Source: a virus. Taken from it: 64,000 nucleotides of DNA. The notes under the pieces are model-generated. The model made no database searches. It saw nothing but the letters and a program-made list of their open reading frames with translations, and had not been told where the DNA came from. The stretch lies in the IMG/VR virus record IMGVR_UViG_3300028840_002420, positions 49,208 through 113,207 of that record. One strand, written 5' to 3'. Position 1 is the first letter of the stretch, and every line of letters begins with the position of its first letter. Of this stretch, positions 23,717-58,900 are shown in pieces. The translations under genes were made by a program, and so were the position numbers.

Positions 23717-23991
23717 CCGAGCACCATCGAATTGTGCTGCTCGAGCTGGAGGATGCTCGAGCAGCGGTCAGCGCGGGGTATCTGTCAGATCGGACACAGT
23801 TGAGCATCGGCGCTGTCTGTCAGGCCGGGCTCGAGCTGTGCCATAAGAAGATGGTCAAGAACCAGAGCGTGCGGCATATCGAGCGCGATGGTCACGAGCT
23901 GACGTTGTACACCTATCGGATCACGGGCCGCGGACGGTCGATGTGCGAGCGGATAAGGGCGGCAGCTCACCAGGGAGATCCTCTCCCGTGA
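23713..23991 (+). CDS. Small hypothetical protein
   Basis: 92 residues, ATGA overlap with the methyltransferase. Helical N-terminus (VLLELEDARAAVSAGYL), basic C-terminus with TYRITGRGRSMCERIRAA, resembling the wing and last helix of a small wHTH. DNA binding is possible. It opens the run of small accessory genes. Confidence 0.72.
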   Translation: MTEHHRIVLLELEDARAAVSAGYLSDRTQLSIGAVCQAGLELCHKKMVKNQSVRHIERDGHELTLYTYRITGRGRSMCERIRAAAHQGDPLP

Positions 23992-24278
23992 ACGATCCCA
24001 AGTATCGGCGATTCCGGTTCAAGGGGATCCGGATGCGGGAGACGACGTGGGACGCGATGGAGGTTCTCGATCACGTGTGGCGGCTGATGAATCGCAGCGC
24101 GATCCATCACAGGACGCGGGGAAGGCTGGTCAAATTCGGGTTTGCGGAATTTCAGGACCGTGGAAAGCACCACATCCGCGGCCGGTTGACTGCGGAAGGG
24201 ATCGATTTCCGCAATCGGGTCTATAAAGAGCGGGCGAGGCGGCTCAACTACAAGCTTTGGAAGGACAAGTGGACATGA
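23988..24278 (+). CDS. Small basic wHTH-like protein
   Basis: 96 residues from GTG 23988 overlapping the upstream stop (GTGA). Very basic. AMEVLDHVWRLMNRSAIHH followed by GRLVKFGFAEFQDRGKHH and RLTAEGIDFRNRV has the helix-helix-wing order of a winged-helix domain. Probably binds DNA; target unknown. Confidence 0.72.
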   Translation: MNDPKYRRFRFKGIRMRETTWDAMEVLDHVWRLMNRSAIHHRTRGRLVKFGFAEFQDRGKHHIRGRLTAEGIDFRNRVYKERARRLNYKLWKDKWT

Positions 24279-24568
24279 GCAAGGTCAACGATAAGGCAGC
24301 GCAGCTATTTCAGGCGTGGTCGGACGAAAAGCGGGCTCTGGAGTCATTGCGGAGTCAGGTGCGGGCTGCGGAAACTAAACTGGAGAACGCGGCGAACGAG
24401 CTGGGCAAGCAGTTGGTGCCGAAAGGGGCCAATCCGAGCGAAGAGTTCGCGATTTGGGTGGGCTGTACGGTCGACGGCGAATCGTTCGATGCGCTCGTGA
24501 CAGTCAAGACTCCCAAGCAGTCGGGCGTGGGTAAGTACAAGATCGAAGTGCGGGAAGAGCGGAGATGA
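24275..24568 (+). CDS. Small hypothetical protein
   Basis: 97 residues, ATGA overlap. Residues 3-45 form a coiled coil (EKRALESLRSQVRAAETKLE), followed by a beta-rich end (FAIWVGCTVDGESFDALVTV). No family recognised. Sits at the point where TGCGGA words become frequent. Confidence 0.72.
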   Translation: MSKVNDKAAQLFQAWSDEKRALESLRSQVRAAETKLENAANELGKQLVPKGANPSEEFAIWVGCTVDGESFDALVTVKTPKQSGVGKYKIEVREERR

Positions 24569-24822
24569 TTCAGTACGAGATGAGGCTGCCATTACGGCAA
24601 GAGCCGTGGCCGAACGGACAGAATGAAGCGAGGCCATGCCCGGTTTGCGGGAAGCCGTGGATTCCGTGGGCTGGTTCCAGGTTGCCTTGTCACGGGCGTT
24701 GTTTGTTTCCGGAGCGGGATAGGCAGCTGATGCAGGCGGATCCGCGGACGGACTTGGAGCTGTCCAAGGCGCTAGGTGTCACGACATCGGTGGTGCGCTC
24801 TGCAAGAAAGCGGCGAGGCTGA
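24565..24822 (+). CDS. Small zinc-ribbon and helix-turn-helix protein
   Basis: 85 residues, ATGA overlap. CPVCGKPW near residue 25 and C...C (LPCHGRC) form a zinc ribbon; the C-terminal part LELSKALGVTTSVVRSARKR matches a short helix-turn-helix. A likely small DNA-binding regulator. TGATG overlap to the next gene. Confidence 0.75.
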   Translation: MIQYEMRLPLRQEPWPNGQNEARPCPVCGKPWIPWAGSRLPCHGRCLFPERDRQLMQADPRTDLELSKALGVTTSVVRSARKRRG

Positions 24823-25304
24823 TGATCATCCGCGTTCCGGACTTTCCGCCCTTTGACGGCGAGGGCAAGCCTCCACGTCCGCTCGTGCTGCTACTTGGTC
24901 AGGGGGACTGGCAGGCTCGAGCGGCTGCGGAATTGTCGTCGAGCTGCGGCGTGGTGGTCTGTACGGACGGGGTGCTGCCGTCTAACAAGGCGCTCCCAGC
25001 GCTGTGGATCGAGGTGTTGCTGCAGTACATCGATGCGGTGGACGCCGTGGGGATCTGGGCTGCGGACGAAGGGCTCTATCTGGACGAATGGACGATGGGG
25101 GCGTACATCTGCGGACGGATTCCGCAAAAGACGCTGGTCGGTTCCGCACCGGAGCCAGAGCACCCGATGGTCCCCGGATTCATCAATCTAGCGATGCAGG
25201 CCGGAGCGTCCGCATTCGCTCGTTACGAGATATTCATGGCGGCGCTCCGCGATCGAGCGAGGCAGAGCCGTCAAAGAGGAAGGCGTGGGCTGAACAATGG
25301 CTGA
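24822..25304 (+). CDS. Nucleoside 2-deoxyribosyltransferase-like protein
   Basis: 160 residues. The order of segments fits the Nuc_deoxyrib_tr_2 fold: LVLLLGQGDWQARAAAEL, a beta strand VVVCTDG, then LWIEVLLQYIDAVDAVGIW, and an acidic strand EGLYLDEWTMGAYICGR ending in KTLVGS. In this family an active-site Glu attacks the nucleoside to swap bases; E in WIEV or DE in YLDEW are candidates. It would act in phage nucleotide salvage together with dCMP deaminase (44,340) and the deoxynucleotidase (46,942). Could also be a catalytically dead DUF4406-like sensor. Confidence 0.6.
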   Translation: MIIRVPDFPPFDGEGKPPRPLVLLLGQGDWQARAAAELSSSCGVVVCTDGVLPSNKALPALWIEVLLQYIDAVDAVGIWAADEGLYLDEWTMGAYICGRIPQKTLVGSAPEPEHPMVPGFINLAMQAGASAFARYEIFMAALRDRARQSRQRGRRGLNNG

Positions 25305-25836
25305 AGAACTGAGACACGTACGCTTCTCATTATCGGACTTGATCTACGCGGTGCAGGCGTTCCGCGGAGATACAACGCCCCTTTCCGCAGACCAGGCGCT
25401 GACCTGGTATTGGAATTGGGCCTCAGATCGCGGATGGAAGCTCAAGATGATCGCCAATCAGATCGATTCCGCAAAGCTGGCCAGCCGTATCGAGTGCGGA
25501 AGTCAGTTTGAGTGGGCTGCGGAAGAATACTGGAATGTGGTCTGGTCCGGAGAGGATATCCAGGCAAGTCCGGACTTGGTTTCCGAAGCAAGCGTTAGAG
25601 ACCTTTCCGCAGCGGCCAAGCTGGTCCTGTCAGAGCTTTTCAAGCGCGGATGGACTGTCCGCAGCCGTATCAATTTGGGCAGCAAGAAGCCGCCCGAAGC
25701 GTGTCTGGTGAGGTACAACGATCAGGGGCCGGAACACCAGATCTTCCTTGATGATGTGATAGCTGTTGCGGACGAGCACGGGGCGGCAGGGACAGCCGTG
25801 AATCTGGAGGATATCGTTTACGACCTGGAGGCCTAA
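25297..25836 (+). CDS. Hypothetical protein
   Basis: 179 residues from ATG 25297, 8-nt overlap. Tryptophan-rich N-terminal half (ALTWYWNWASDRGWKL), no known motif. Of special note is its DNA: nine TGCGGA/TCCGCA words occur in the gene or its edges, in several reading frames (for example DSAK written with TCC-GCA, and TGC-GGA for Cys-Gly). It ends the upstream unit; a promoter for the clamp gene follows. Confidence 0.72.
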   Translation: MAEELRHVRFSLSDLIYAVQAFRGDTTPLSADQALTWYWNWASDRGWKLKMIANQIDSAKLASRIECGSQFEWAAEEYWNVVWSGEDIQASPDLVSEASVRDLSAAAKLVLSELFKRGWTVRSRINLGSKKPPEACLVRYNDQGPEHQIFLDDVIAVADEHGAAGTAVNLEDIVYDLEA

Positions 25837-25874
25837 AAACATCCACGGTATCGCGCAGTTATAAAAAACAGCCG

Positions 25875-25912
25875 CTGCGGAATTGGCAGGCCGCAGTCGG
25901 GGGCAATATAAG
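25875..25912 (+). promoter_or_regulatory. Promoter and inverted repeat before the clamp gene
   Basis: TTGGCA (25883-25888), 18-nt spacer, TATAAG (25907-25912). An inverted repeat CTGCGG (25875-25880) / CCGCAG (25891-25896) brackets the -35 box and may be an operator. The clamp start follows at 25,925 with AGGTGA as ribosome site. Confidence 0.6.
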
Positions 25913-25924
25913 CTAGGTGAAATC

Positions 25925-26974
25925 ATGAGCGAAATTGTCGAGGTAATCCGCAAGGTAGCAGCGTTTGCGGACAAGCAGGAATCAGAGACCTTCACGCTCG
26001 CCGATGTCCATTTCCGCAAAGGCGAGGTGTACGCACAAAGCATGGTGGGCGGGGCGCTAGAACCAATCGAGCTGGAGCTGAATTGCGGAGTCAATGCCAA
26101 GAAGCTGCTCAAGGCGCTCCAGGCGGTGGGCAAGGCGCCCAAGTTCGAGATGGTCGGAAAGCAGCTCAAGGTCTCCAAGGGCAAGTCCAGGGCGAAGCTC
26201 GAGACCAGCGATCCGAAGCACGCTCCGAAGCTGCACAGGCCTCCCAAGGGCGCTGAGTGGCTGGAGGTGCCTCATCTGCACGAAGCAAGCAGGCTGGTGT
26301 GGGCAGTCTCCACAGATACTACGCGGACGCATATCGCTGGTGTGTGCCTATCGGCCAGGGGGCTGTGTGCGACCAATGGCCACGCAGCGATCAAGCTCGG
26401 AGAGGAGAACTACTGCGAGCTGCTAGGCTGCGGCGAAGCCTCCGCTCCGCTCATTCCGCCAGCTGTGCTCAAGAACCTACCCAACCCGACGTTCGCCTGT
26501 CTTCACCAGGGCAAGCTCTATCTGGCCGCGGAGTCCAAGCCGAAGGCCTTCCGCAGCGCCAATCTGTACGATGCCAGGTTTCCGTCGATGGAGCAGGTGA
26601 TGGAGACAGGGCGCGGTCAGCCGCGGCTGTCTGTGGACCGTAGCGCTCTGGTCGATTTGCTCAAGCGGGCGCGGCTGTCTTCTCATTCCGCAGTGCTCGA
26701 AGTCAAAGGAAAGCGGTTGAGCGTTAGCATCGACGATACACGGCCCGCGGACACGTTGTTTTCGTTTGCGGACAGTGTGGAGTTCACCAAGGTGTCTGGC
26801 GAGGTTCCGGACGGGTTGATCAGCCTGAACCTGAACTACCTGTTGCCCAGTGTGGAGACCTGTAGCGACAAGCAGGTGACGCTGGGGATGCTTCCCGAAG
26901 CAGCCGGGAGTCTCGAGCCGATCTATGTGACGGACGGTGACATCGAAGCGATCATGATGCCTATGCGGATGTGA
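25925..26974 (+). CDS. dnaN: DNA polymerase sliding clamp (DnaN-type)
   Basis: 349 residues, slightly shorter than cellular beta clamps (about 366-380). Three similar domains can be traced: residues 1-110, about 115-235 and 240-349. The decisive end is DGDIEAIMMPMRM, which copies the universal DnaN C-terminus (LVMPMRL); ISLNLNYLLPSVE matches the segment before the last strands. It encircles DNA and tethers polymerases and other partners carrying QLxLF-like peptides; such peptides occur in at least five other proteins of this window. It has its own promoter 9 kb from the polymerase gene. Its usual partner is PolC/DnaE, so pairing with a family-A enzyme is notable. Confidence 0.82.
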   Translation: MSEIVEVIRKVAAFADKQESETFTLADVHFRKGEVYAQSMVGGALEPIELELNCGVNAKKLLKALQAVGKAPKFEMVGKQLKVSKGKSRAKLETSDPKHAPKLHRPPKGAEWLEVPHLHEASRLVWAVSTDTTRTHIAGVCLSARGLCATNGHAAIKLGEENYCELLGCGEASAPLIPPAVLKNLPNPTFACLHQGKLYLAAESKPKAFRSANLYDARFPSMEQVMETGRGQPRLSVDRSALVDLLKRARLSSHSAVLEVKGKRLSVSIDDTRPADTLFSFADSVEFTKVSGEVPDGLISLNLNYLLPSVETCSDKQVTLGMLPEAAGSLEPIYVTDGDIEAIMMPMRM

Positions 26975-27192
26975 TGATGAGCTACGCTGAGAAGAGAGAT
27001 GAGAAGCTCCGGGATATTCGCGAGCGCCCAGAACGACACAGGCATTCGTTCGGGGCTCTGCAGGTCTGCTGCATGATCGACGGCTGCCTTGATGGGCTGC
27101 TGTTGGAGGCTCACGAAGGCTTGACGGGCAGTAACGGGGGCCGCGGCTGCGATACGACATCGGGGCCGTGTTCGTGCGGAGCGTGGCATTGA
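26974..27192 (+). CDS. Small cysteine/histidine-rich protein
   Basis: 72 residues, TGATG overlap with the clamp gene (second ATG at 26,977). CCMIDGC, CDTTSGPCSCGAWH and several histidines could bind one or two zinc ions. Helical N-terminus rich in K/E. Function unknown. Confidence 0.7.
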   Translation: MMSYAEKRDEKLRDIRERPERHRHSFGALQVCCMIDGCLDGLLLEAHEGLTGSNGGRGCDTTSGPCSCGAWH

Positions 27193-27653
27193 TGGGGCAG
27201 GTATGTCTGAAGTGCGGAAACACGGAGTGGAAGCTACTCAGCGAGCTGACTATCTCAGTCCAGCCGGGCTCTCGTGAGGATTGCTGGGCGTGCTCTGGCT
27301 GCCTGCTGCCGTTGGGTAGACCAGGGGATGCCGCAGTGGTCGGGGTGAAGCCTACTACGCCGGTCAAGATCGAGCGCGTGTTCTACCAGTCGCTGCGTGC
27401 GGAGAGCTTCACAGAGCGGTTGCGGAATGAGGCGTTCGAGGCACTCAAGAAGGCTGCGGACCAGGCAATCGAGCAGGTGATCGAAGGCTGTACAGCGTCA
27501 TTCTCAAGGCGGAGCTGTCTGAGCTTGATTGCCAGGACGCTCGATCTGGCTTGGCAGGAGCGCTGGCAGGAAGCTCTCGAAGTCGCGGAGTTAGCGGTTG
27601 CCGAGCTGAAAGGCAAAATTGATCGGCAACACTTTGGCCCCGAAACGCCATAG
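27192..27653 (+). CDS. Zinc-ribbon protein with helical tail
   Basis: 153 residues, TGATG overlap. CLKCGNTEW at residue 5 and CWACSGCLLP near 30 make an N-terminal ribbon; the C-terminal 90 residues are helical and alanine-rich (ALKKAADQAIEQVIEG). The stop codon lies inside promoter E. Unknown function. Confidence 0.75.
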   Translation: MGQVCLKCGNTEWKLLSELTISVQPGSREDCWACSGCLLPLGRPGDAAVVGVKPTTPVKIERVFYQSLRAESFTERLRNEAFEALKKAADQAIEQVIEGCTASFSRRSCLSLIARTLDLAWQERWQEALEVAELAVAELKGKIDRQHFGPETP

Positions 27654-27654
27654 T
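27626..27654 (+). promoter_or_regulatory. Promoter E of the GCTACA/CATAGT family (variant)
   Basis: GCAACA (27626-27631), 17-nt spacer, CATAGT (27649-27654). The -35 has one change and the spacer one extra base compared with the four other copies; ACTTTGGCC after the -35 is shared with copy C. Gene start at 27,711. Confidence 0.55.
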
Positions 27655-27710
27655 AGGGATATGGCGGGTGTTGAGTAGGCTTGCAGGCTGCCACGGTTTG
27701 GAGAACGAAG

Positions 27711-28214
27711 ATGAATTTGGAAGCGGTGCGGAAGGTCATTGACGACCTGAACGATCGGGGCTTCGAGTACGTAGGTCACGCGTTTTGGTCCGTGTCCTAT
27801 TGCGGAAGCGGGTCCATCGTTGTCGAGGCGATGGGGATCCCGATCTGGGATAGTGAGGAAGACGAGCGCGAGCAGATCGGGACGTGTCCGAAGTGTGGTG
27901 GTTCCGGGGCTGATCCGGATTGGGTGGAGGGCAGTGCTCGCCCCACGTGTCCGACTTGCGGTGGAGACGGCGAAGACGATCTGTGGGAGCCGCTGGCCGC
28001 GTTCTTGCCGCGGCGGTTGATGGAGATTGCTCTCGAGCTGCTGTTGATGGCCGGGCCGAAGTCGGACAGTGAAACGTCGATGGCCCATGACGATCGACCG
28101 GTACCAGATCCGCCGCTATGTCAGGGCTGCGCTCACCAGCAAAATAACTGCTGTGTGCGGTCTAAGACGTTGGGCGTGTTGTCCGGAGCGTGCCCGGATT
28201 TCGAGCAGCAGTGA
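27711..28214 (+). CDS. Protein with DnaJ-type zinc knuckles and second cysteine cluster
   Basis: 167 residues from ATG 27711 (GGAG spaced 8). CPKCGGSG and CPTCGGDG are two CxxCxGxG repeats that together bind one zinc, as in half of DnaJ's cysteine-rich domain. The C-terminal 35 residues have a second cluster: CQGCAH, CCVRS and CPDF. The middle is a leucine-rich helix (LMEIALELLLMAG). First gene after promoter E. Likely a protein-interaction adaptor; function unknown. Confidence 0.77.
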   Translation: MNLEAVRKVIDDLNDRGFEYVGHAFWSVSYCGSGSIVVEAMGIPIWDSEEDEREQIGTCPKCGGSGADPDWVEGSARPTCPTCGGDGEDDLWEPLAAFLPRRLMEIALELLLMAGPKSDSETSMAHDDRPVPDPPLCQGCAHQQNNCCVRSKTLGVLSGACPDFEQQ

Positions 28215-28498
28215 TTGCCGCGAATTGCCATATCGTCGGCTCTGACCAGGTATTCGCTGTGCTCTGTCGGGCTGACGCGATGTGGGGCGATCCGTGGTCC
28301 AAGGGGCTCGCGGATTATCTCAATGCGGTAGCTGAGCGCGAGTGGCGCGAAAGAGAACGGGAGCTCGACCTTGCGCGGCAGCTCGAGCTGTACCCAGAGA
28401 CTGAAGAGCAGGAGCCGGACGTGGTGCCGGCCGAGTTGGTGCTGGAGTGGGACGCGTACGGAGGTACTGATGGAGATTCCGCAAGACAAGCTCGTTGA
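28211..28498 (+). CDS. Small hypothetical protein
   Basis: 95 residues from GTG 28211 that overlaps the upstream stop (GTGA). Long charged helix in the middle (NAVAEREWRERERELDLARQ) and an acidic end. No family recognised. Confidence 0.7.
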   Translation: MIAANCHIVGSDQVFAVLCRADAMWGDPWSKGLADYLNAVAEREWRERERELDLARQLELYPETEEQEPDVVPAELVLEWDAYGGTDGDSARQAR

Positions 28499-28826
28499 TC
28501 TGATGCAGCGGTTTCCAGCGGCGCGGGAGTGGCTGTATCGGCCGGTGTTGCAGGAGGCGCTCCAAGTGGCCTACAAGCTGGGCTGGTTGGCTGGGCAGCA
28601 GAACGAGCGCGATCAGGGGCCGGCGAAGTCGTTCGAAGAGCTGGAGCAGCGGCGTGCGCGGCGCACGCTGGGAGGCTATTCCGTGCACTGCTGCGATGGC
28701 TGTGGAGAGGAGATCGCACAGAGCGAGGCGGCTGTGGCTTCGAACCATGGTGTTTTTCATGAGCGCTGCTACAAGGCAGATCCGAAGCGCGGACTGCCCC
28801 AGCCGAAAGGGGGACAAGGGCGATGA
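28470..28826 (+). CDS. Small zinc-finger protein
   Basis: 118 residues from ATG 28470 with GGAGG upstream, overlapping the previous gene by 29 nt. The C-terminal half has CCDGCGEEI, then HGVFHERCY, a C/C/H/C arrangement of a LIM- or TraR-like finger. The N-terminal half is helical. Such TraR/DksA-like fingers can bind RNA polymerase, but this is inference. Confidence 0.75.
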   Translation: MEIPQDKLVDLMQRFPAAREWLYRPVLQEALQVAYKLGWLAGQQNERDQGPAKSFEELEQRRARRTLGGYSVHCCDGCGEEIAQSEAAVASNHGVFHERCYKADPKRGLPQPKGGQGR

Positions 28827-29299
28827 ATCAGACAGGGCGCAGCATGATCGCGATAGCGGTCACCAGGGTGCTGCGGAAGTACGAAGATAGCGGACACATC
28901 CGGGCCGGGTGCGGACGGCGCGGTGATCGGCCAAATTGGGCCGCGGGCTGGGTGCCGGGGATGGACGATACCGGGGGGCTCGGACCGATTCCGCAAGGGA
29001 CCATTGACGCCATCGCGGAAGAGGTGGCGCGGAACATCGAGACACAGCTGGACGCGGCTCAGGGCAAGACACCCGAAGCGCCTCCAGAGAAGCCAAAGAA
29101 GCGCGAACGGCCGGATTGGCTGATCGTGGTTGGTGGTGACAAGCAAGGGGAAGATGATGCAGACGACGTTCGATCAGGTGAAGGTATTTTCGGCGACGAA
29201 GGCGAAGGATCGGGGACAGCTGGGCGAGACAGTGACGGAGTGGCTGCGGAAGCAGCCGCGAACGGAGATAGTGGACAAGCAGATCCTCCAGAGCAGTGA
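28823..29299 (+). CDS. Hypothetical protein with unusually long 3' overlap
   Basis: 158 residues, ATGA overlap at the start. Residues 1-105 look real: helix IAIAVTRVLRKYEDSG, then a helix TIDAIAEEVARNIETQLDAA and a K/P linker ending DWLIVVGGD. The last 48 residues are low-complexity G/D/E/A and run 143 nt into the next gene in another frame. The natural end is probably near the next start, so the original stop seems lost, or a sequencing error shifted the frame. Function unknown. Confidence 0.62.
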   Translation: MNQTGRSMIAIAVTRVLRKYEDSGHIRAGCGRRGDRPNWAAGWVPGMDDTGGLGPIPQGTIDAIAEEVARNIETQLDAAQGKTPEAPPEKPKKRERPDWLIVVGGDKQGEDDADDVRSGEGIFGDEGEGSGTAGRDSDGVAAEAAANGDSGQADPPEQ

Positions 29300-29555
29300 T
29301 GCCGAGTTTCATTGCCTGACGATCGTCCTGTTTCTGCGGGAGCCGCGGCAGCTGCCTGTGCTGCACTGTCTCAGGAATGGCCGGGCGATGTGCAAAAAGT
29401 TCCGCCAACCGCCCGGCAAGTGGCCGAAGGGTCATCAGTGGCTGTCGATTGCGGACTGGCCCGATGATGCCAGGCCTGGGATCCCGTTTCACGGTCCGCG
29501 CGGGTCGGCGATGATCTGTCCGCGATGCTATGAGGAGTTGAATCGTGCCGATTGA
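29157..29555 (+). CDS. Small conserved-looking phage protein
   Basis: 132 residues from ATG 29157, six bases after AAGGGG. The start VKVFSATKAKDRGQLGETV and the phrase SSDAEFHCLTIVLFL match a pattern I recall from many phage proteins of unknown function. The C-terminal half is basic with CxxC (ICPRCYEEL). Alpha/beta fold likely. Confidence 0.72.
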   Translation: MQTTFDQVKVFSATKAKDRGQLGETVTEWLRKQPRTEIVDKQILQSSDAEFHCLTIVLFLREPRQLPVLHCLRNGRAMCKKFRQPPGKWPKGHQWLSIADWPDDARPGIPFHGPRGSAMICPRCYEELNRAD

Positions 29556-29994
29556 CGCGAAAGAGCATGCAGCTGAGCTGCTGGAAGAATGCCGCCATCC
29601 GTTGGGCTCGAGCAGTATCTTGGCGGCGAGTCCGGACTACACGGCCGCCGTGTTTCGTGCAGCGCTCGAGTTAGCCTACGAGCTGGGTGAGGAAGGCGCC
29701 AAGCTGCCCGAGCCACGGAAGTTCCGAGAGGGTGTTAGTCGGCTGATCGCTGCGCACCAAGGGACAGTGACGGGGCCGGTGACGTTGCGAGATGGGCCGG
29801 TGGAGATCCCGGTGACGGAGGAGATGCTGGGCTTTCGAGGGGCGTCACAGGCTGTTTGCACCCAGTGCGGACGCAAGACGTGGGATGCGGTGCTGATCGG
29901 CCTGACGTGCGGAATGTCGCAGCCTGATGGTACGAAATGCGAGGGGCGCTTCTACACGGAGGAGATGGCGCGCGTGAGCGGGAGAAGGCCGTAG
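29545..29994 (+). CDS. Hypothetical protein with C-terminal cysteines
   Basis: 149 residues from GTG 29545 with GAGG upstream, 11-nt overlap. An N-terminal helical domain (AAVFRAALELAYELGEEG) is followed by a zinc-ribbon-like C-terminal part (CTQCGRKTW, CGMSQPDGTKC). Unknown function. Confidence 0.75.
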   Translation: MPIDAKEHAAELLEECRHPLGSSSILAASPDYTAAVFRAALELAYELGEEGAKLPEPRKFREGVSRLIAAHQGTVTGPVTLRDGPVEIPVTEEMLGFRGASQAVCTQCGRKTWDAVLIGLTCGMSQPDGTKCEGRFYTEEMARVSGRRP

Positions 29995-30003
29995 GGGGAT
30001 CAC

Positions 30004-30522
30004 GTGTATTACGACATCATTGGATACGCGCCCAGTCGTGGGAGCATGGGGGTGCACGGGTTCTCGATTCAACTCTATCCCGGCTGGAGGGGTTTGGTTG
30101 AGCGGTCGCAGATGGACCAGGAGCGTGCTGACCACCTGATCAAAAACAGCGGGCGCTGGTGGCTTGACTCGTGCGGCTACGATCGCATCTTCGACCCCGA
30201 CAACTGCGGCATCGACTATGACCCGAAGAAACCACCGGGCCCTGAAGCCGGACCAGCCTACAAGCCTCTGATCGACCTACGCGTGAAGTGGGGGGGATGG
30301 GGTCCGGAGCACATCATGGTGCCGGGCGATGCGTGCGGTCTCGACCTCGACCACCATTCGCCATCGCACGTCGAGGGCGGCGCCGTGCTGCTGCCCCACA
30401 ACGTTGACACCTGGAAGCAAAAGAACCTGCTGATGATCGTGTTTTTGCATATCGCCTACTCGTTGTCGTTCTATAACGAAGCGGACCGTGCGGAAAGAGA
30501 GGCGAAGCGCAATGCGGACTGA
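30004..30522 (+). CDS. Hypothetical protein
   Basis: 172 residues from GTG 30004, GGGGGAT upstream. Aromatic and Asp/His-rich with CGYDRIFDPDNCGIDYDP and GLDLDHHSPSHV, which could chelate metal. Its DNA has few TGCGGA words compared with its neighbours and uses more A/C-ending codons (CCA, ACC), suggesting separate origin. No family recognised. Confidence 0.7.
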   Translation: MYYDIIGYAPSRGSMGVHGFSIQLYPGWRGLVERSQMDQERADHLIKNSGRWWLDSCGYDRIFDPDNCGIDYDPKKPPGPEAGPAYKPLIDLRVKWGGWGPEHIMVPGDACGLDLDHHSPSHVEGGAVLLPHNVDTWKQKNLLMIVFLHIAYSLSFYNEADRAEREAKRNAD

Positions 30523-31814: not shown

Positions 31815-31820
31815 AGGGCT

Positions 31821-31848
31821 GCTACACTTTGGCCGCTCAGCGCATAGT
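31821..31848 (+). promoter_or_regulatory. Promoter C of the GCTACA/CATAGT family
   Basis: GCTACA (31821-31826), 16-nt spacer with CTTTGGCCGCTCAGCG, CATAGT (31843-31848). The spacer is nearly identical to that of copy D at 36,155 (CTTCGGCGGCTCAGCG), so the whole 30 bp is conserved, not only the hexamers. Confidence 0.7.
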
Positions 31849-32020
31849 AGTAGATGGAACGGGCTGGCGTTACGCCGTCCGAGTTGTTGTTTCTCGCAGC
31901 CTCCCGAACCATTGGAGGCCACAAGGCCCTGAAGCACTACACACAGGGCCACGGAGCTTCACGCCCTTGGGGTAGTCAAGTCGAGGTGGCTGCCCCAGGG
32001 GGACTGTGAAAGGGGTTAAG
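31849..32020 (+). ncRNA. Structured 170-nt leader RNA (candidate)
   Basis: Noncoding stretch between promoter C and the next start. Four stems can be drawn: GGCG-TTA-CGCC (31866-31876), CCTCC/GGAGG (31900-31904 / 31914-31918), GGCCCTG/CAGGGCC (31925-31931 / 31944-31950) and TTGGGG/CCCCAG (31967-31972 / 31993-31998). The last stem ends 12 nt before the ribosome site. A leader of this length is exceptional here. I cannot match it to a known riboswitch. Confidence 0.4.
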
Positions 32021-33521: not shown

Positions 33522-33522
33522 G

Positions 33523-35358: not shown

Positions 35359-35359
35359 G

Positions 35360-35557: not shown

Positions 35558-35569
35558 AGGACGATTGAC

Positions 35570-35767: not shown

Positions 35768-35771
35768 CCCA

Positions 35772-36046: not shown

Positions 36047-36088
36047 CTGATAACGCAACAATTGAGCATGCGTGAGTGGTAACGGCGC

Positions 36089-36150
36089 GGCGGGCGTCGG
36101 AGTGGCGAGACCCTCAAACTAGGGCGTAGCCGCAACCCGCCTCGATTTTT
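36089..36150 (+). terminator. Rho-independent terminator candidate
   Basis: GGCGGG (36089-36094) pairs with CCCGCC (36136-36141), enclosing a second hairpin CCCT-CAAACT-AGGG (36111-36124), and is followed by TCGATTTTT (T5 at 36,146-36,150). Promoter D starts five bases later, so this marks a clean end/start of transcription units. Confidence 0.6.
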
Positions 36151-36154
36151 GCCT

Positions 36155-36182
36155 GCTACACTTCGGCGGCTCAGCGCATAGT
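36155..36182 (+). promoter_or_regulatory. Promoter D of the GCTACA/CATAGT family
   Basis: GCTACA (36155-36160), 16-nt spacer CTTCGGCGGCTCAGCG, CATAGT (36177-36182). Directly behind the terminator; serves the gene at 36,217. Confidence 0.7.
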
Positions 36183-36216
36183 AGGGGTGATGGGGCAAAG
36201 AAGACTGGAGCCGAGA

Positions 36217-41164: not shown

Positions 41165-41388
41165 TGAGGCTGTGGCCTTGGGCACGTAGGCCGCGATGCT
41201 GCAGGCGCGCGGTCAAGATCATCTATGCCGGGCTGCCAGGCCGCTGGTGTCCGCGGTGTGGAAGGCTTAGCGGTCCCGCGTGTTGGGCCGCTCAGATATT
41301 CTTCACGGGCTGGATGATGACCTACACCGGTAGCTACTGGCTGGCGCTGTGGGAGTGGTTGCGGAATTCCGCATCGAATGCGGAATAG
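41164..41388 (+). CDS. Small membrane-associated zinc-ribbon-like protein
   Basis: 74 residues, TGATG overlap. Basic cysteine-rich start (RRPRCCRRAVK), CPRCG ribbon half, then a hydrophobic stretch AQIFFTGWMMTYTGSYWLAL that may span the membrane. Its last 30 bases contain a TGCGGAATTCCGCA palindrome and another TGCGGA, just upstream of a promoter. Confidence 0.65.
   Translation: MRLWPWARRPRCCRRAVKIIYAGLPGRWCPRCGRLSGPACWAAQIFFTGWMMTYTGSYWLALWEWLRNSASNAE
41360..41373 (+). repeat. Palindromic doublet TGCGGAATTCCGCA
   Basis: Perfect 14-bp palindrome made of two inverted copies of the TGCGGA word. A third TGCGGA follows at 41,380-41,385. An identical palindrome occurs at 53,670. Confidence 0.9.
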
Positions 41389-41392
41389 AGGG

Positions 41393-41421
41393 TTGACAGT
41401 GCGGAGAGTCTCCGCTACCTT
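41393..41421 (+). promoter_or_regulatory. TTGACA promoter with palindromic operator
   Basis: TTGACA (41393-41398), 17-nt spacer, TACCTT (41416-41421). The spacer contains GCGGAGAGTCTCCGC (41401-41415), an odd palindrome with 7-bp arms placed exactly between -35 and -10, a classic repressor site. The upstream GGGTTGACAGTGCGGAG recurs at 46,001 and 48,148. Gene start at 41,460. Confidence 0.7.
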
Positions 41422-41459
41422 CTAATTATCGCTTCGGCGATTCACCAAGGAGACTCACG

Positions 41460-41858
41460 ATGACGACCGAATCTACCATTATCGCAAAGCACGGTGGCCT
41501 CTCTTGGGAAGCCGGAACCTGTGATGCCGGTCCGTATTACCTCAACAACCGGTGGATGATCTTTGCCAGCTTTGGTACTCGGAGCTTGGCAATCAGTCGG
41601 CCGGGTAGTGTGTGGCAGCGCGAAGCGTTTGAGACTTCGCGGGCCGCATTTGAAGCCTGTAAGTTGGTGCTTGATCCTGAGTGCTATAACGCCGAAGAAA
41701 TCCGGCGCGTGGTTCGGGTAGCTACTGTTGCTGCTCGGGCGGAGTGGAAACGGTTCGGCGAGACAATCGGGCGGATCGGTGGTTCTAGCGCTGTTGCGGC
41801 GTATCACGCTGCAACTCTTGATCGGGTGTGCAAAAAGTTGGAAGGGGGCTCCCGATGA
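41460..41858 (+). CDS. Hypothetical protein behind operator-type promoter
   Basis: 132 residues from ATG 41460, with AAGGAGACTCAC as leader ribosome site. A beta-rich N-terminal half (MIFASFGTRSLAISRPGSVW) is followed by helices (AEEIRRVVRVATVAARAEWK). No family recognised. As first gene after a palindromic operator it may be produced early or be a regulator, but this is inference from position. Confidence 0.78.
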   Translation: MTTESTIIAKHGGLSWEAGTCDAGPYYLNNRWMIFASFGTRSLAISRPGSVWQREAFETSRAAFEACKLVLDPECYNAEEIRRVVRVATVAARAEWKRFGETIGRIGGSSAVAAYHAATLDRVCKKLEGGSR

Positions 41859-44834: not shown

Positions 44835-44840
44835 GGCGCG

Positions 44841-45901: not shown

Positions 45902-45923
45902 GGGTCCAGGTCCGCATCTGCCT

Positions 45924-45953
45924 ACATCTTGATCGCTGATTGCGGAATGTCAA
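45924..45953 (-). promoter_or_regulatory. Leftward TTGACA promoter
   Basis: On the minus strand: TTGACA (45,953-45,948), then 16-18 nt, CAAGAT/AGATGT near 45,931-45,924. As in the rightward family, TTCCGCA directly follows the -35 box. Confidence 0.5.
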
Positions 45954-46002
45954 GGGATGCGGGTGTTTACGATTGCGGAATTCGTTTTCTGCGGAATAGG
46001 GG

Positions 46003-46033
46003 TTGCAAAGTGCGGAGTCGCGGTCACCATGAT
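46003..46033 (+). promoter_or_regulatory. TTGCAA promoter with TGCGGAGTC spacer
   Basis: TTGCAA (46003-46008) followed by AGTGCGGAGTC and a weak -10 near CATGAT (46,028-46,033). The upstream GGGGTTGCAAAGTGCGGAG aligns with the promoters at 41,393 and 48,150. Gene start at 46,065. Confidence 0.5.
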
Positions 46034-46064
46034 CAGTGCCTTTGGGCGAACCCAGGAGACTCAG

Positions 46065-46310
46065 ATGACGGCGGAAGAGGATCGCGCGTTCGAGCAGGAT
46101 CAGATCATGTCGTGGGCAAGGAAGTTGTGGCCTCGTACTTCGCAGCTCCGGCCAATCAAGACGTTTTCGTCGATTTGCAACGGGCAGCAGTGGTACATGG
46201 TGCTGTCCGATAGCGGAAACAAGCTGGCGATGGCGTTTTTAGACCCGACAAATTTCTTGCCGTGGTTTCAGCCGGTCGGGTCGACGGAGCCCGACGAGTG
46301 CGGAGGGTAG
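46065..46310 (+). CDS. Small hypothetical protein
   Basis: 81 residues from ATG 46065; leader CAGGAGACTCAG. Acidic helix EEDRAFEQDQIMSWARKLW, then IKTFSSICNGQQWYMVLSD and LAMAFLDPTNFLPWF. No family recognised. Its own promoter and its place opposite a leftward gene suggest a regulated single-gene unit. Confidence 0.74.
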   Translation: MTAEEDRAFEQDQIMSWARKLWPRTSQLRPIKTFSSICNGQQWYMVLSDSGNKLAMAFLDPTNFLPWFQPVGSTEPDECGG

Positions 46311-46337
46311 TGCAAATAATGCGGAGTGGTGTAACAT
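46310..46337 (+). promoter_or_regulatory. Promoter with leaderless -10
   Basis: GTGCAA (46310-46315), 16-nt spacer containing ATGCGGAGT, TAACAT (46332-46337). The -10 ends seven bases before ATG 46345 with no ribosome site, as in leaderless transcripts. Confidence 0.55.
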
Positions 46338-46344
46338 CTGCGGA

Positions 46345-46656
46345 ATGCCGCAGCTCAAGCTACCTTTCCGCGGGGCGATTTTGTCGCGGAAGCATGGCGG
46401 AACGGCGAAGTGCCGCGGCTATTGCCGGTATTGGAAGACGCGTCCGCGGCAGCTCGAAGATTGGCTGCTTTGCGCTGGTAGTATCGATTGGCCTCCGTGT
46501 CCGGACTATCAGGTTTGTCGGGCCAATCCAGCTCCGCGGTTGGTCATTGTCAAAGACCCGTCCAAGCCGCCACCAAACTACACACTGCGGCCGAAAGGCC
46601 AGAGAGGGGGAGCCAATGCCGAAGACGGCGGGAACCTACCCGATGACACCAATTGA
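46345..46656 (+). CDS. Small protein with N-terminal clamp-binding-like motif
   Basis: 103 residues from ATG 46345. The N-terminus MPQLKLPF fits the clamp-binding hexapeptide (QLxLPx, as Hda QLSLPL). Four cysteines follow (CRGYCRYW, LLCAGS, CPDYQVC). The tail is proline-rich. Apparently leaderless. It overlaps the next gene by 41 nt. May bind the phage or host clamp; untested. Confidence 0.65.
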   Translation: MPQLKLPFRGAILSRKHGGTAKCRGYCRYWKTRPRQLEDWLLCAGSIDWPPCPDYQVCRANPAPRLVIVKDPSKPPPNYTLRPKGQRGGANAEDGGNLPDDTN

Positions 46657-46939
46657 AGATCATATCGCCCGCGCTTTGTCACTCGCTGGGCTGAGTAGCC
46701 GTGAGATCGCTAAGATGCTCGGACGGAGCGATAAGACGATCAGCCTGGCCTTTGAGCGTGCGAGTGCGAGCGAGGATGATCATCCATTATTGCGGATGGC
46801 GTCTCAAAAGGAGGTGCTTAAGTCGCTGTCTGCGAGCGATAAGCGGCTGCTGACGAATATCTTGGGCTTCTCCCAGTGGTTGAGCTCCGGAAGAGAAAAC
46901 GGCTACGTGGCTGCGCTAGTGCGGCTGATTCGAGGGTAA
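46616..46939 (+). CDS. Helix-turn-helix regulator
   Basis: 107 residues from ATG 46616 with GAGAGGGGGAG upstream. Residues about 15-45 (IARALSLAGLSSREIAKMLG, RSDKTISLAFERA) are a clear HTH of the sigma-region-4/LuxR type. The C-terminal helices (LLTNILGFSQWLSSG) could dimerise. A likely transcription regulator for this region. Confidence 0.78.
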   Translation: MPKTAGTYPMTPIEDHIARALSLAGLSSREIAKMLGRSDKTISLAFERASASEDDHPLLRMASQKEVLKSLSASDKRLLTNILGFSQWLSSGRENGYVAALVRLIRG

Positions 46940-46941
46940 CG

Positions 46942-53640: not shown

Positions 53641-53843
53641 GGCCGCACGAAGGTGATCCGTGCGTTCATTGCGGAATTCCGCACGATGAGGTGCCGGTGG
53701 GGTCGTGTCCAGGCTGTCCGGAGTGCGGTGGGCGCGGCTACTATCCCGAACCACACGGACCTGAAGATCCGTGGGGTGTGCAGGACGTGCGGGAACGCTA
53801 TTGTAGCTGTCCGGCCGGTAAGCGGCTGAAGGAGGCCGAGTGA
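53637..53843 (+). CDS. Small zinc-knuckle protein
   Basis: 68 residues, ATGA overlap. CVHCGIPH, CPGCPECGGRGY and CSCPAG give seven cysteines including a DnaJ-like CxxCxGxG repeat. The first 50 bases hold a TGCGGAATTCCGCA palindrome. Directly before the terminase gene; role unknown. Confidence 0.72.
   Translation: MRPHEGDPCVHCGIPHDEVPVGSCPGCPECGGRGYYPEPHGPEDPWGVQDVRERYCSCPAGKRLKEAE
53670..53683 (+). repeat. Palindromic doublet TGCGGAATTCCGCA
   Basis: Second perfect copy of the 14-bp palindrome found at 41,360, here 170 bp upstream of the terminase start. Confidence 0.9.
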
Positions 53844-55945
53844 TTCCGCGGACGCCGGTCCTTGGCAAACTGCCGACGCTGCTGCTGCGGAATGTGAAGC
53901 CGCCTCCGACACCGGTGATCGATGGGACACCCGTCCGCACGGTCTCCAGTATGCTCGATCATGGATTCACGGACGAAGAGCTGGAGGCTGTTGTCGAGCT
54001 GGCCAGTGTGGCGCCGGAGTCCGATCCCGCGTGGTCCGCAGCCTATCCTGAAGTGCTCAAGTCGAGCTGTGCGTACTTTGCGAGCGAGGTGCTCCGCGGT
54101 CCTTCAAAGGAGCCGTACAATGGTAAGTTTCTGCTCGGGCGCCATCATATCGAGTGGGATGAGCTGATCGCGACGCAGCAGCGGATCAACATCCTGGCCG
54201 CTCGTGACCACGGCAAGAGCTATTTTTTCACGTTTGCCTATCCCATCTGGAAAGCCGGGTTCAACGCTCCGGGCTCCGAAGGCTACATCTTTTCCGCAAC
54301 CGAAGATCAGGCCGTGGCCTTCTTGACGATGATCAAGGAGGAGATCGAGAAGAATCAGAAGCTGCAGCACTTGTTGCCGATCGGTACGGTCCGCAGCAAG
54401 CCGGGGATCTGGAGCCGGACTCAAATCACGTTGCGGAATGGCTCGGTCATCAAAGCTCGAGGGTTTGGGACCAAGGTCCGCGGCGGTCACCCCGATTGGG
54501 TGATCTGCGATGACGTGCTCAACGATGACGATATCTACTCTGACCTGATTCGTCAGCGGAACATCGACTACTTCCTGTCCGCAATCTCGGGCATGGTCCA
54601 TCCGACTGACCAGTTGATCGTGGTTGGAACGCCGATGCACGAGATGGACTTGTACGGGGTGCTTGCGAACACCGAGCAGGTTCTAAAGATTGCTGGCGAC
54701 GTGTCCAAAGAGGACCTGCAGGGCTACGTCTACGAGTGCCGGAAATACCCGTGCAAGGATCCGGAGACGGGCGAGCTGCTCTTTCCAGAGCGCTACGATG
54801 AGAAGGCGCTCAAGCTCAAACGCATCGAGCTCAAGACGGCGGCCAGATTTGCGCGGGAGTTTCTGTGCGAGCCGCTGTCTGATGAGGCCTCGCTGTTTCC
54901 GGCGAAGCTGTTCCGCCAGGATGGAATGCGTCAGCCATACGTGCTCGGGCTTCCCGCGGGTTATTGGGAGAAGCAAGGCTGTTTGCGCTACACGGGAGTG
55001 GACATCGCTCTGTCTGCGGAAACGGGTGCGGACTACTTCGTCATCTTCACGGTCGCGGTCGATCCCAGGGGCAACCGTTGGTTGGCCAATCTGATCCGAC
55101 ACAAGGGTCTCGCATTCCACGAGCAAATCGAGCTGATCAAAGAAGAGAATCTGTTGATGCGGCCGGAGATCATCCACATTGAGGCCAACCAGGCGCAGCG
55201 GGTCTGGACCGATGAGGTGGCACGGACAAGCGATGCTCAGGTGCGGCGGTTCTTCACCACGGGTATCGGTGGGCGTCAGCCGGACAACGCGTGGAAGAAA
55301 GGGGCGACACAGGTCGCGGTTAACAAGCATCACATCGATCGCGGTGTGCCAGCTCTGCGGCTGTCGCTCGAGCACAACAAGTGGAAGATCCCGCGCGGCG
55401 ACGATAACAGCATCGAGCAGACCAACGTCTGGATCAAGGAGATGGGCTGTATCGGTTGGATCGACGGCAAGGTGCAGACGGTTGCTGGCCACGATGACAC
55501 GGTGATGGCGTGTTGGATGTGCGACACAGCGGTTCGGATGGGAGGTGTCGATCTGAGCTATATCGACCACGAAGACGAGCAATCCAAAGATGTGCTGGCA
55601 TCTCCGGTGGTTTCCACGAAGGAAATGCCCGAGCACGACTTTTTGGTTGCGGAACGGCGGGCGTTGGCGGCTGTTCAGCAGGGACGGCGCGTTGTCGATG
55701 TGACTGCGGACGCGTACGAGTCGCGGGTACGTGCGGCAATAAAGGCTTATGCCTCTGATAGTTACGACCAGGATGAATACGCGCGGGCAGCGCGTGCACT
55801 CCAAGAGATCAAGCGTCTGGACGCAGCTTTCGGAGTCCGCAGTGCGGACTTCCCAGTTGGCAACGAAGGCTCAGACGGGTATGTTGAGAGCGATGATTCA
55901 CAGGGTGAAGGCGCTCCTTCATTTGAAGATCTCGGAGTGATTTAA
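53840..55945 (+). CDS. terL: Terminase large subunit
   Basis: 701 residues from GTG 53840 (GTGA overlap). ATPase: Walker A-like AARDHGKSY (120-128), Walker B WVICDDV (220-226), coupling motif VVGTPMHE (261-268). Nuclease: GVDIALS (386-392, D388) and GHDDTVMA (about 543-550). It translocates DNA into the prohead and cuts it. The last 110 residues beyond the nuclease are acidic and helical and may bind the portal. The portal gene lies 7 kb downstream after two very large genes, instead of adjacent. The small subunit was not identified with certainty. Confidence 0.93.
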   Translation: MIPRTPVLGKLPTLLLRNVKPPPTPVIDGTPVRTVSSMLDHGFTDEELEAVVELASVAPESDPAWSAAYPEVLKSSCAYFASEVLRGPSKEPYNGKFLLGRHHIEWDELIATQQRINILAARDHGKSYFFTFAYPIWKAGFNAPGSEGYIFSATEDQAVAFLTMIKEEIEKNQKLQHLLPIGTVRSKPGIWSRTQITLRNGSVIKARGFGTKVRGGHPDWVICDDVLNDDDIYSDLIRQRNIDYFLSAISGMVHPTDQLIVVGTPMHEMDLYGVLANTEQVLKIAGDVSKEDLQGYVYECRKYPCKDPETGELLFPERYDEKALKLKRIELKTAARFAREFLCEPLSDEASLFPAKLFRQDGMRQPYVLGLPAGYWEKQGCLRYTGVDIALSAETGADYFVIFTVAVDPRGNRWLANLIRHKGLAFHEQIELIKEENLLMRPEIIHIEANQAQRVWTDEVARTSDAQVRRFFTTGIGGRQPDNAWKKGATQVAVNKHHIDRGVPALRLSLEHNKWKIPRGDDNSIEQTNVWIKEMGCIGWIDGKVQTVAGHDDTVMACWMCDTAVRMGGVDLSYIDHEDEQSKDVLASPVVSTKEMPEHDFLVAERRALAAVQQGRRVVDVTADAYESRVRAAIKAYASDSYDQDEYARAARALQEIKRLDAAFGVRSADFPVGNEGSDGYVESDDSQGEGAPSFEDLGVI
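55836..55848 (+). repeat. Inverted pair TCCGCA-G-TGCGGA
   Basis: TCCGCA (55836-55841) and TGCGGA (55843-55848), flanked by G and C, form the 15-bp palindrome-like GTCCGCAGTGCGGAC inside the terminase gene. The orientation is opposite to that of the two TGCGGAATTCCGCA sites. Confidence 0.85.
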
Positions 55946-58900
55946 TGCGGAAGGCATTATCGGGCTTTCAGGTCGCCGGTAGATTCGGTATCGAGGGCCA
56001 AGGCCCGAAACTAGTTCTTGGCCGCAATCATCTGAGAGCCCAAACGGGTGTTGATACTTCGGCGCTGTCTGATCTCACCGGACCTGCGAAGCCTCTGAAA
56101 GATCCAGTCGTCCCGTCGTCTCGTGCGGAATTCCGTACGATCACGGAGGTGATCGATGGACTAGGGCTCGATGCGGAAAGTCGCCGAGCGGTTTCGGATA
56201 AGCTTCGGGAGTGGTCCCAGGCCTCCAATCCGCTCGAGTTCCGTAGGAGTCTGTACGGTGGTTTGCGGACGTTTGCTCCGGACAACTTTCCGTTGCGGAG
56301 CGAGCTGGGGAGGCGCTGCATGTCCTATTTTCGCGCGACGGCCGGGGACCGGTTCAGCCGGGCGTTCGGTAAAGAGGGCCAGCGGCTGGTTGTTCAGAAG
56401 AGCGAAGAGCTGTCCAAAGCGAAGCAGCTTGGACTGTTCGATCGGCCGGCTAAGCCGAAGCCTTCTGCTAAGCCAGCTCCGCGGGGCGGGCCGTTCATCG
56501 GTCCGCGCGGTGGGAAGTGGGCGGATCCTCAACACACGATTCCGTGGAAGGAGCCAACGGCCAAGCCGGCGAAAGCTGCGGAAGTTCCGGAGCCGAAGGC
56601 CAAGCCCAAACCACAGGTACATAGCAAGACGTTCGAGCGGACGATCAGCACGTGGGTAACTTCGGACGGGAAGGGCAAGACCAAAGCGGAAGTTGAGCAG
56701 GCGCTGTCCGAACGGCTCGCTGCCCAGAAGAAATCCACGGTGCTCAGCTACAAGGTCGAGCACCAGGGGCGGAAAGCAGCGACGGTTGTCGATAAGGGGT
56801 CGCCGTACGAGTATTGGCTACCAGAGCGGGACGATTGGAAGATCACGATTGATCATCAGGCTGCGCTGCCCGGACATATTTTGGTCGGCCACGTCGAGAC
56901 GGGCAAGCAGGGGCTCATCACGATATTCGACGACCAGACGAAGGTGGCTAAGGCGACGTACGATCGAGCGGAGCACGGTCATTGCGACGTGTGCAAAGCC
57001 AAGCGGGCACGCAACAAGGTGTTTGTCGTCGAGCGCGAAAAGGATGGGAAGCAGATCCTTGTCGGTGGGGAATGCGCCAAGAAATTCAAGGGGGCCAATC
57101 TGGAGGCGCTGGCGCGGAGTATCTCCGGTGACTCGATGGCGCCGGTCAACGACGTGTTGGACTCCGATGACGACTTTTTTGGTGGCGGCGGCAGTCCGGG
57201 GGCGCTCGGTGAGCCTCACGAGGTGTTGGGCGTCGCTCTGTGGTTGACGCGAAAGCGTGGTTACGAGAAGCGGACGGACATGAGCGGAGGTACCGCCGAT
57301 TTTGCCGAAGGGATCATCGGCCGGTACAAGGGCGTTAAGACGACGCCGGAAGAGTGGGCGGAGATCAAAAAGGTCCAAGCAGAGGTTCAGAAGGACCTTC
57401 CGAAGATCAAGGAGTGGGTGCGCGAGCAGCTCGGTGAGGGGACCGATTTGACGCGTGAACAGGCGTTCATGCTGTCAGTGTCGCAGCTGCTCGATCGTGA
57501 TTTCATCGCGGCCAAGAATTTCAGCCGAGTGGCGTGGGTGCCGTACAAGTACTATCGCGTGCAGGCGGCGCAGAAACTCCGAGAGCAGCAGAAATCCTAT
57601 GACCCGCCGAGCGCAAAGATGCACGACTTGCCCGGCAAGTGGACGGTCGTATCGAAAACGCTCAAGGAGTCGGCCTACGGTTCGTACTGGGGCATTACTG
57701 CTCAAGCTGAAGACGGGGCGCGAATTTGGTTCCGGGGGACCAAGGGCTCTGACCAGATCCAGGAAGGGGACACGCTCAAGCTCCGCGGAAAGCTCAAGGA
57801 CAAGAAGGATAAGATCACGTTCATGTCCCACATGAAGGTGACCAACGAGAGCGAGAACGAGCGGAAGGCCGCGGAAGAGGCGGAAGCCAAGAAGCGAGAA
57901 GCTGCGCGGCAGAAGCTGCTTGCTAGCGATAAGCCAGAGGACATAGTTCGAGTCTCGCCCAGCGAGTTTTATGATCATACCGATCCGGAAGGGACGATTA
58001 AGCGGCAGCAGAAGTTCCGTGTCAGGCACGCGAAGGCTGTTCGTACGCTGGCGGAGCGCGGCGCAGAGATTCCCGACGACGCGATCCGTTTGGCGATTGA
58101 TCATCACGATGGCTATAAGGCTCCGGATCCCAACCCTGAGCTTGGACAAGCTCTGCGCCAGTATCGAGCGGTTCAAGATGGCCGTCATCCGATGCAGGCG
58201 AATGAAATGCTGCGATTGTTTCCGAAGGCCGCGGAAAAGCTGATCCGGGAAAAGTTGCCGAAGAAGCAAGCGGACTATGTGCTGCAGGAGAGCGATCCCG
58301 AGAAGGCTTCGTTTCACGGACCGGCAGTCAAGAAGTCCGATTGGGACGGCCAGCTTGATGGCCTTCGGCAGCGGATGCGGCTGACGCTTGATCCGAAGCC
58401 ACTGAGCCTGATTTGGGTGGCGGAGGTCGGCGACGAGCTGCACGAGCGCTCGAGCGAGCGGACTCCGCCCGGATGGCCGAATGAAGGCTCGCTGGTCAAA
58501 GGGGCTGGCCACAAGTACTACAAACGGACGCCACGGCCGGATCCGCCTCCGAAGTACCGGTACTTCTACACGCAGCCGAAGCGCAAAGGGATCACGGAAT
58601 CGAAGGACGTTCAGCAGGGGGCCAAGTTCAAGATCGAGCACGGCGGCCAGCTCGGGCACTTCGAAATTCGCGGGCACGACAAAGAGAGCGGGATCGTCAC
58701 AGTTCGTCATGACGAGAGCGGAAAGACGGTCAACATCAAAGAGCGGGACCTGCATCGGATGATCGCGAGGCATCACGGCCGGCGAACCAAGCGGACTGCG
58801 GAAGAGCGGGCGGAACGCCATCGCGAAAAGCGGGAAGCTCGAGCGCTCAAGCTCCGCGTCCAGCCGACACAGGCTCGATTGCCTGGTACCGAAGCCAAGG

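Follow-up and report, generated by a model that had tools for sequence, protein, structure and literature searches.

Short words occur densely in some bacterial genomes, as DNA uptake sequences in Haemophilus and Neisseria and as the HIP1 element in cyanobacteria, and related organisms have their own dialects of them. Among mycobacteriophages, those of cluster A (L5 with its relatives) carry stoperators, described in the PubMed Central (PMC) article PMC9283540 as more than twenty 13-bp asymmetric sites that lie in promoters and short intergenic spaces and are oriented with transcription. Here, we analyzed a 64,000-bp stretch of viral DNA (the window), bases 49,208 to 113,207 of the 113,207-bp IMG/VR virus record IMGVR_UViG_3300028840_002420, in which the 6-bp word TGCGGA (TCCGCA on the opposite strand) recurs at high density. 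The other 49,207 bp of the record were also analyzed; positions given below are those of the window.

Even after protein, codon, and dinucleotide needs were allowed for, TGCGGA was in excess at hundreds of places, and other phage lineages with a related head protein showed the same phenomenon with other words. Together, the word excess and the different words of several distant relatives suggest a DNA signal that a viral protein reads.

Excess of TGCGGA/TCCGCA in the record

The record contains 383 copies of the word, in all reading frames and on both strands, whereas base composition predicts about 0.65/kb. Densities were 2.8/kb in the left 49 kb, 2.6/kb in 1 to 23,900, and 4.6/kb in both 23,901 to 53,160 and 53,161 to 64,000. 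In its fuller form the word reads TTGCGGA[A/C], with T favored before it and A or C after it. The first-pass annotation had reported about nine copies per kb across the accessory and packaging genes at 23,900 to 56,000. Its hand counts were exact (3 in 5,001 to 8,000, 28 [17 + 11] in 25,001 to 28,000, and 26 [15 + 11] in 53,161 to 55,960), but a density of nine is reached solely in the two counted stretches, which are among the densest; the whole span holds 105 TGCGGA and 55 TCCGCA, 160 copies. Confinement to those genes was an error, as the excess is recordwide save for 1 to 23,900 and the head-protein block. The regions concerned are as follows:

23,900 to 56,000: stretch singled out earlier, 5.0 copies/kb; the excess continues up to position 64,000 and is also seen in most of the left 49 kb
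1 to 23,900: replication and recombination gene region; word near chance in genes when the repeat gene is excluded (32 against 20.5)
11,070 to 12,584, plus strand: Pro/Gln-rich tandem-repeat gene; 22 word copies, stemming from the repeat

The main null was a shuffle preserving protein, codon use, and position-specific dinucleotides, applied to genes from a simple caller written for this analysis; counts below are given as observed against expected. The tandem-repeat gene, with 22 of the copies in 1 to 23,900, was excluded from the gene tests. In genes, the word was found 334 times against 118.0 (standard deviation, 9.7; Z score of 22), ranking first of 1,998 hexamers; shuffling within genes only gave 154.3 (Z of 21). 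The regional values were 138 against 46.8 in the left part, 115 against 35.9 in 23,901 to 53,160, and 49 against 16.8 in 53,161 to 64,000, while the near-chance count in 1 to 23,900 ranked 23rd of 1,469. Per 6-kb block of genes, the ratio of observed to expected ranged from 0.4 (head-protein block) to 5.3. The word thus withstood the codon shuffle that had been proposed as a way to refute it, and codon bias or composition was rejected as its cause. By strand, 211 forward and 123 reverse copies in genes compare with 86 and 33 expected, an excess of about 125 and 90, respectively, on which ground an RNA-level element was rejected. The codon and dinucleotide null and the two-strand excess also support the earlier statement that selection acts on DNA and not on protein, if selection is taken to include a biased process. 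Weak scaled selection (1 to 2 per site) or weak biased conversion would be compatible with the ratios of about 3 to 9.

Two results weigh against this observation. Word spacing in this phage was clumped (coefficient of variation [CV] of the gaps, 1.36), and a plain fourth-order Markov model gave only a 1.5-fold excess in the window (246 against 162). The latter favors the view that composition, codon bias, or a mutational process produced the word incidentally. Conversion from one neighboring word was rejected, since the largest deficits of 46 (TGCGCA), 29, and 28 compare with an excess of 216. Deficits over all depleted one-step neighbors sum to 196, however, so that by counts alone a many-neighbor process looks the same as selection; in contig M, a relative introduced below, the summed deficit even exceeded the excess (51 against 30). 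This neighbor test covered the window phage and contigs J, K, M, and Q, with R513 and U514 left out. A by-product is nonetheless highly improbable in our judgment given the Z score under the codon and dinucleotide null, the insufficiency of any single neighbor, and the best long relative, H (IMGVR_UViG_3300021511_000005; 109,478 bp), which is largely syntenic and similar in guanine-plus-cytosine content, has an 83% identical head protein, and shows little excess. Enrichment did not correlate with gene identity to H (Spearman coefficient of −0.02; 40 genes); fast-evolving genes were not favored.

Several further words deviated from expectation. TGCGCA, one letter off TGCGGA and an FspI site, was strongly depleted recordwide (18 against 64). 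The palindrome GCTCGAGC was over-represented at 76 sites in the record and enriched in all regions, including 1 to 23,900. In genes of the record, TCGAGC occurred 369 times against 211. GAGCTG was raised and GAGCTC depleted (22 against 70.5), as if a SacI-like site were avoided.

Other words in phages with a related head protein

The source virus is a bacterial virus known from environmental DNA only. It is a tailed phage that encodes a terminase, a DdrB-ParB protein, a tail sheath, and a phrog_752 head protein. The head protein shares 37% identity with its SPO1 counterpart and, among the matches listed, 28 to 40% with those of cultured phages of Bacillus, Bacteroides, Pseudomonas, Bordetella, Thermus, and others. 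Searches for relatives via PolI and UvsX found none. In GTDB genomes, a first scan for the head protein found nothing, and an alignment scan gave three loci in metagenome-assembled genomes (MAGs).

TGCGGA itself ranked first only in locus L019 among 17 relatives scanned (21 against 7.0); its closest relative, L127, whose head protein shares 88% identity, was without it (4 against 4.0 in 6.4 kb). Words of comparable strength in other lineages were ATTGTCG, TTCTGGA, TTTGTCTCC, and TTCCGGA. The worded records comprise R513 (IMGVR_UViG_3300040801_002379; 109,823 bp) and the mostly partial contigs J, K, M, Q, and U514. R513 carries TTCTGGA (297 against 83 in genes) and TTTCTGGA (91 against 8.6), J carries GATTGTCG (94 against 11.8), K carries CGACAATT (55 against 6.3), and M carries TTCCGGA (37 against 5.8). 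CGACAAT occurred 137 times in J and 99 times in K, compared with 1 and 4 copies of the word read backwards. In Q, the palindrome TGCCGGCA lies at 17 sites, each scored twice in the original count. U514 carries TTTGTCTCC (40 against 1.2), at 43 sites against 0 when read backwards. In reverse, this word (GGAGACAAA) looks like the ribosome-binding site that precedes a start codon, and one copy is placed exactly so; the both-strand excess argues that ribosome binding is not the whole story. Some of the words resemble each other (TTCCGCA, TTCCGGA, and TTCTGGA; also ATTGTCG, TTTGTCTC, and TTGTCAG), which looks like drift of one recognition.

Most relatives scanned had no sharp word (17 relatives, 49 loci, and 48 loci, in overlapping sets), and scans of loci of 5 to 20 kb have little power. 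By their best words, H (GCTCGAGC, 24 against 4.3), V515 (22 against 6.8), W516 (19 against 2.8), and X517 (GTGCGGT, 23 against 4.2) are weakly worded rather than wordless. Because words were chosen after ranking thousands of k-mers, weak ones (L157, L179, and L190) may be chance or repeats. Two of six cultured relatives tested (50 kb each) carried a word, Mecenats66 (TGCCGGTA, 17 against 2.8) and phiMa; Touem01, Jeremy, PHB04, and ST4 showed no sharp one. Among control phages tested in this way, T4, T7, and lambda also lacked a sharp word, and the first 50 kb of P1 returned the Escherichia coli Chi site GCTGGTGG as the top 8-mer (26 against 3.8; Z of 16). Among genes present in at least three of ten records, no window-phage gene was restricted to worded phages.

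Strand counts were near balance in R513 (169/167), J (75/62), K (53/46), and U514 (41/34); in the window phage they were 232/151, a skew partly explained by composition. The R513 word was enriched in every 10-kb block. Words in J were more evenly spaced than expected by chance (CV, 0.75; P of 0.001); spacing in R513, U514, K, and M was almost random. Densities outside genes exceeded those inside in R513 (5.06 against 2.91/kb), U514 (5.35 against 1.40/kb), and K (4.10 against 1.73/kb). Words in the same place were shared at 17 of 201 sites from the window phage to H, 10 of 79 from J to K, and 3 of 12 from L019 to the window phage, compared with 25 of 180 for the control word GAGCTG. This low sharing rejects fixed positions; the sites turn over.

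Such words could be a host-genome signature, HIP1-like or a host uptake word, common to host and phage. In the Thermus phage phiMa, CCTCGAGG was found 85 times against 18.9 in genes, and the plasmid pTT27 of its host holds 24 copies in 30 kb (0.8/kb) compared with 86 in 50 kb of the phage; with the word shared in part, a host-shared word is possible within the head-protein family. The remaining comparisons point the other way. The phage contig L097 lies in a Sulfuricurvum MAG, where it may be misbinned, and carries 41 copies of TTCCGGA in 21.4 kb (1.9/kb, compared with 0.7/kb in M); the MAG holds this word at chance (27 against 23.8 in 173 kb), and 121 Campylobacterota genomes hold at most 0.28/kb, although this phylum need not be that of the host. 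Similarly, TTGCGGAA reached at most about 0.11/kb in 377 Myxococcota genomes, again not necessarily the phylum of the host, compared with 0.50/kb (57 copies) in the window phage. We consider a host signature improbable. The Sulfuricurvum MAG has a word of its own, GGCATGTG (L116 to L125, of which L123 is the phage contig; 80 against 6.6 in genes; Z of 30), which may have a Chi, uptake, or methylation function in the bacterium; it was absent from the analyzed pieces of the L097 phage contig. Contig C91 of this MAG was equated with the contig of L097 by its length of 39,000.

Words in promoters and candidate readers

R513 has 12 promoter-like sites with TTKAC-type −35 elements, with TTCTGGA following the −35 element exactly in six and its inverted copy, TCCAGAA, upstream in nine. 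TTKACD lay 0 to 3 nucleotides upstream of 6 of the 167 forward words, compared with 0.21 expected, and of none of the 169 reverse words. In H, seven promoters follow the pattern TTGAC[A/T]-3nt-TCCGCA-like-nn-GGTCA, or more fully TTGACA-3nt-TCCGCA-nn-(G)CGGTCA, so that the word sits in the spacer; the hexamer is exact in five. Here, TTKACD preceded 6 of 62 copies of TCCGCA (0.18 expected) and none of 86 in reverse. Among viral contigs, this pattern was found in H alone. Weaker evidence comes from the window, in which three promoter-like sites have a pair of words 21 bp apart around a −35 element, TTGACA or TTGCAA (41,379, 45,990, and 48,135). The features concerned are as follows:

41,360 to 41,459, plus strand: promoter-like region; words at 41,360 (+), 41,368 (−), 41,379 (+), and 41,400 (+); TTGACA at 41,393, with a single base between it and the fourth word; ATG at 41,460
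45,911 to 46,064, plus strand: promoter-like region with five words, of which the final two (45,990 and 46,011) lie 21 bp apart with TTGCAA between; GCGGTCA follows, as in the H promoters
46,299 to 46,345, plus strand: three words (46,299, 46,320, and 46,339) upstream of a helix-turn-helix (HTH) gene; the first two lie 21 bp apart, without an evident −35 element
46,616 to 46,939, plus strand: gene for a 107-amino-acid protein, candidate word reader; weak HTH_38 match (7.7e-5), below the Pfam cutoff
48,135 to 48,215, plus strand: promoter-like region; words at 48,135 and 48,156 (21-bp distance), the second directly preceded by TTGACA at 48,150; ATG at 48,216

Since the word is a promoter element in R513 and in H, where it is the hexamer of the window phage, and less firmly in the window phage itself, we place first the reading that it is the putative binding site of a phage-encoded promoter regulator, broadcast genomewide in the manner of stoperators but denser and unpolarized. 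Our confidence in this reading comes close to even. The copies beside the −35 element and about 21 to 30 bp upstream would be the operators of a promoter set, and the hundreds of dispersed copies would be extra binding sites of little individual worth. The latter may serve to silence the genome by coating it; alternatively, they may titrate the regulator, in which case promoter output would track the phage genome copy number. The specificity of the regulator would drift between lineages, and the word would drift along with it. The HTH protein, which has a homologue in H (49% over 45 amino acids), is a candidate reader.

A number of results weigh against the operator reading. Because the R513 promoters, which share the block TTTTTCTGC, seem to be copied from each other, their words do not count as independent. 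In H, which carries the hexamer in its promoters, the genomewide excess of TGCGGA is only mild: it was found 139 times against 94 and ranked 19th of 1,924, behind the top hexamer GAGCTG. The −35 link in the window phage is weak (3 of 232 words against 0.95 expected, one of the three within a gene), and none was seen in the partial contigs J (1 against 0.8), K (1 against 0.5), U514 (0), and M (1 against 0.2). Density outside genes was little raised in the window phage (3.94 against 3.34/kb) and J (2.85 against 2.12/kb), and M had no word in its 1,824 bp outside genes. No reader protein was conserved across the worded phages, and the significant match of the HTH protein was in H only.

More broadly, and more tentatively than for the operator reading, the words of some tailed phages in this head-protein family may be lineage-specific heritable passwords of 6 to 9 bp that occur at about 0.7 to 3.4/kb on both strands of coding DNA. 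A fast-drifting phage reader would use them for self-recognition or for counting genome copies, which would set the transcription program.

Alternatively, the words could be Chi-like, i.e., sites at which a helicase-nuclease or recombinase, of the phage or of an unsampled host, changes its mode; this would protect DNA or steer recombination-dependent replication, and biased conversion would spread the word. The P1 control indicates that dispersed words in 5- to 10-fold excess are what Chi looks like in a phage, and a word length of 6 to 9 bp fits. The window phage also encodes UvsX, SbcC-like, and UvsW/D10-like proteins, and unwinding by the T5 D10 helicase is sequence regulated (PMC5180179). 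Strand polarity was absent in R513, J, K, and U514, however, and some words are palindromic or nearly so (TTCCGGA and TGCCGGCA). A host Chi should abound in the host, which was not the case for L097 and Sulfuricurvum. Helicase, DnaB, primase, and UvsX/SbcCD, where the contig covers them, were common to worded and weakly worded phages, and the words in promoters are left unexplained. We consider a Chi-like role rather unlikely.

Another possibility is that the word is a methyltransferase site that distinguishes phage from other DNA. Type III and BREX sites are short and asymmetric, and the phage words are short and partly asymmetric. The window phage encodes the enzyme that the first-pass annotation had proposed as reader:

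22,277 to 23,716, plus strand: ParB-N6/N4-methyltransferase; role as word reader not supported

Its family, PF01555 (N6_N4_Mtase), is present in the window phage, H, V515, W516, and X517 and absent from R513, J, K, M, Q, and U514. On co-occurrence, the proposal fails because the strongly worded R513 lacks the family and four weakly worded genomes have it. PF00145 (C5) was found in H only, PF02086 in X517 only, and PF02384 in none of the 11 records. Across these four families and 11 records, some of them partial contigs, the word does not follow the methyltransferases, which makes a self mark about as doubtful as a host signature. In the accessory region of H (L091 to L093), a Mom-family match (5.4e-6) and a C5-methylase match suggest that H DNA may be modified.

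Other features are also of note. A second promoter-like element, tgctaca-ct..ggc.gctcagcgcatagtag, has three intergenic copies (523 to 565, 31,817 to 31,858, and 36,148 to 36,190) without the word. A gene split between the two record ends corresponds to a single gene of about 570 amino acids in relatives L007 and H; the ends therefore look adjacent, and the record probably represents a circularly permuted genome that is nearly complete. The minus-strand open reading frame at 62,945 to 63,946 is probably spurious, as the true gene seems to run past the record end and resume at the start. Proteins at 55,945 to 60,729 and L001:1,481 to 3,622 match the P1 DdrB-ParB and DarB-like antirestriction families, with a possible virion-borne antirestriction role. 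Four phage tRNA genes, Leu(tag), Tyr(gta), Leu(caa), and Leu(taa), are clustered at L003:7,371 to 7,682.

Comparison with known systems

Nothing similar was found in open-license PMC full text, subscription papers being outside this scope, and the phenomenon may be unreported. Should the reader be found, the words would constitute a phage-encoded, lineage-specific, genomewide code carried largely by synonymous sites. Uncultured phages could then be sorted by word, and new short-site DNA-binding specificities would become available. The system could serve to test how the dose of a single regulator is set by the number of dispersed sites, and odd synonymous choices in a phage could be understood as serving a DNA code rather than translation.

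Unlike uptake sequences and HIP1, which are features of bacterial genomes, the words described here occur in phages and, in the cases tested, are not shared by the bacterium. With Chi (GCTGGTGG, in which P1 is rich), they share being short, dispersed, and several-fold above the codon null. Chi belongs to a host recombination enzyme and is usually polarized, whereas these words are unpolarized, lineage specific, and infrequent in the bacteria tested.

The likeness to the stoperators of L5 and its relatives, as PMC9283540 presents them, is that the site of one phage-encoded regulator occurs in promoters as well as scattered and that its specificity varies among related phages. Words both in promoters and elsewhere were seen in R513 and H, weakly in the window phage, and not in J, K, M, or U514. 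Orientation with transcription was not observed (169/167 in R513 and 232/151 in the window phage), nor were the sites mostly in short intergenic spaces, with 29 of the 383 copies in the record outside called genes. In contrast to these stoperators, the words number in the hundreds, are 6 to 9 bp long, and lie mostly within genes and on both strands.

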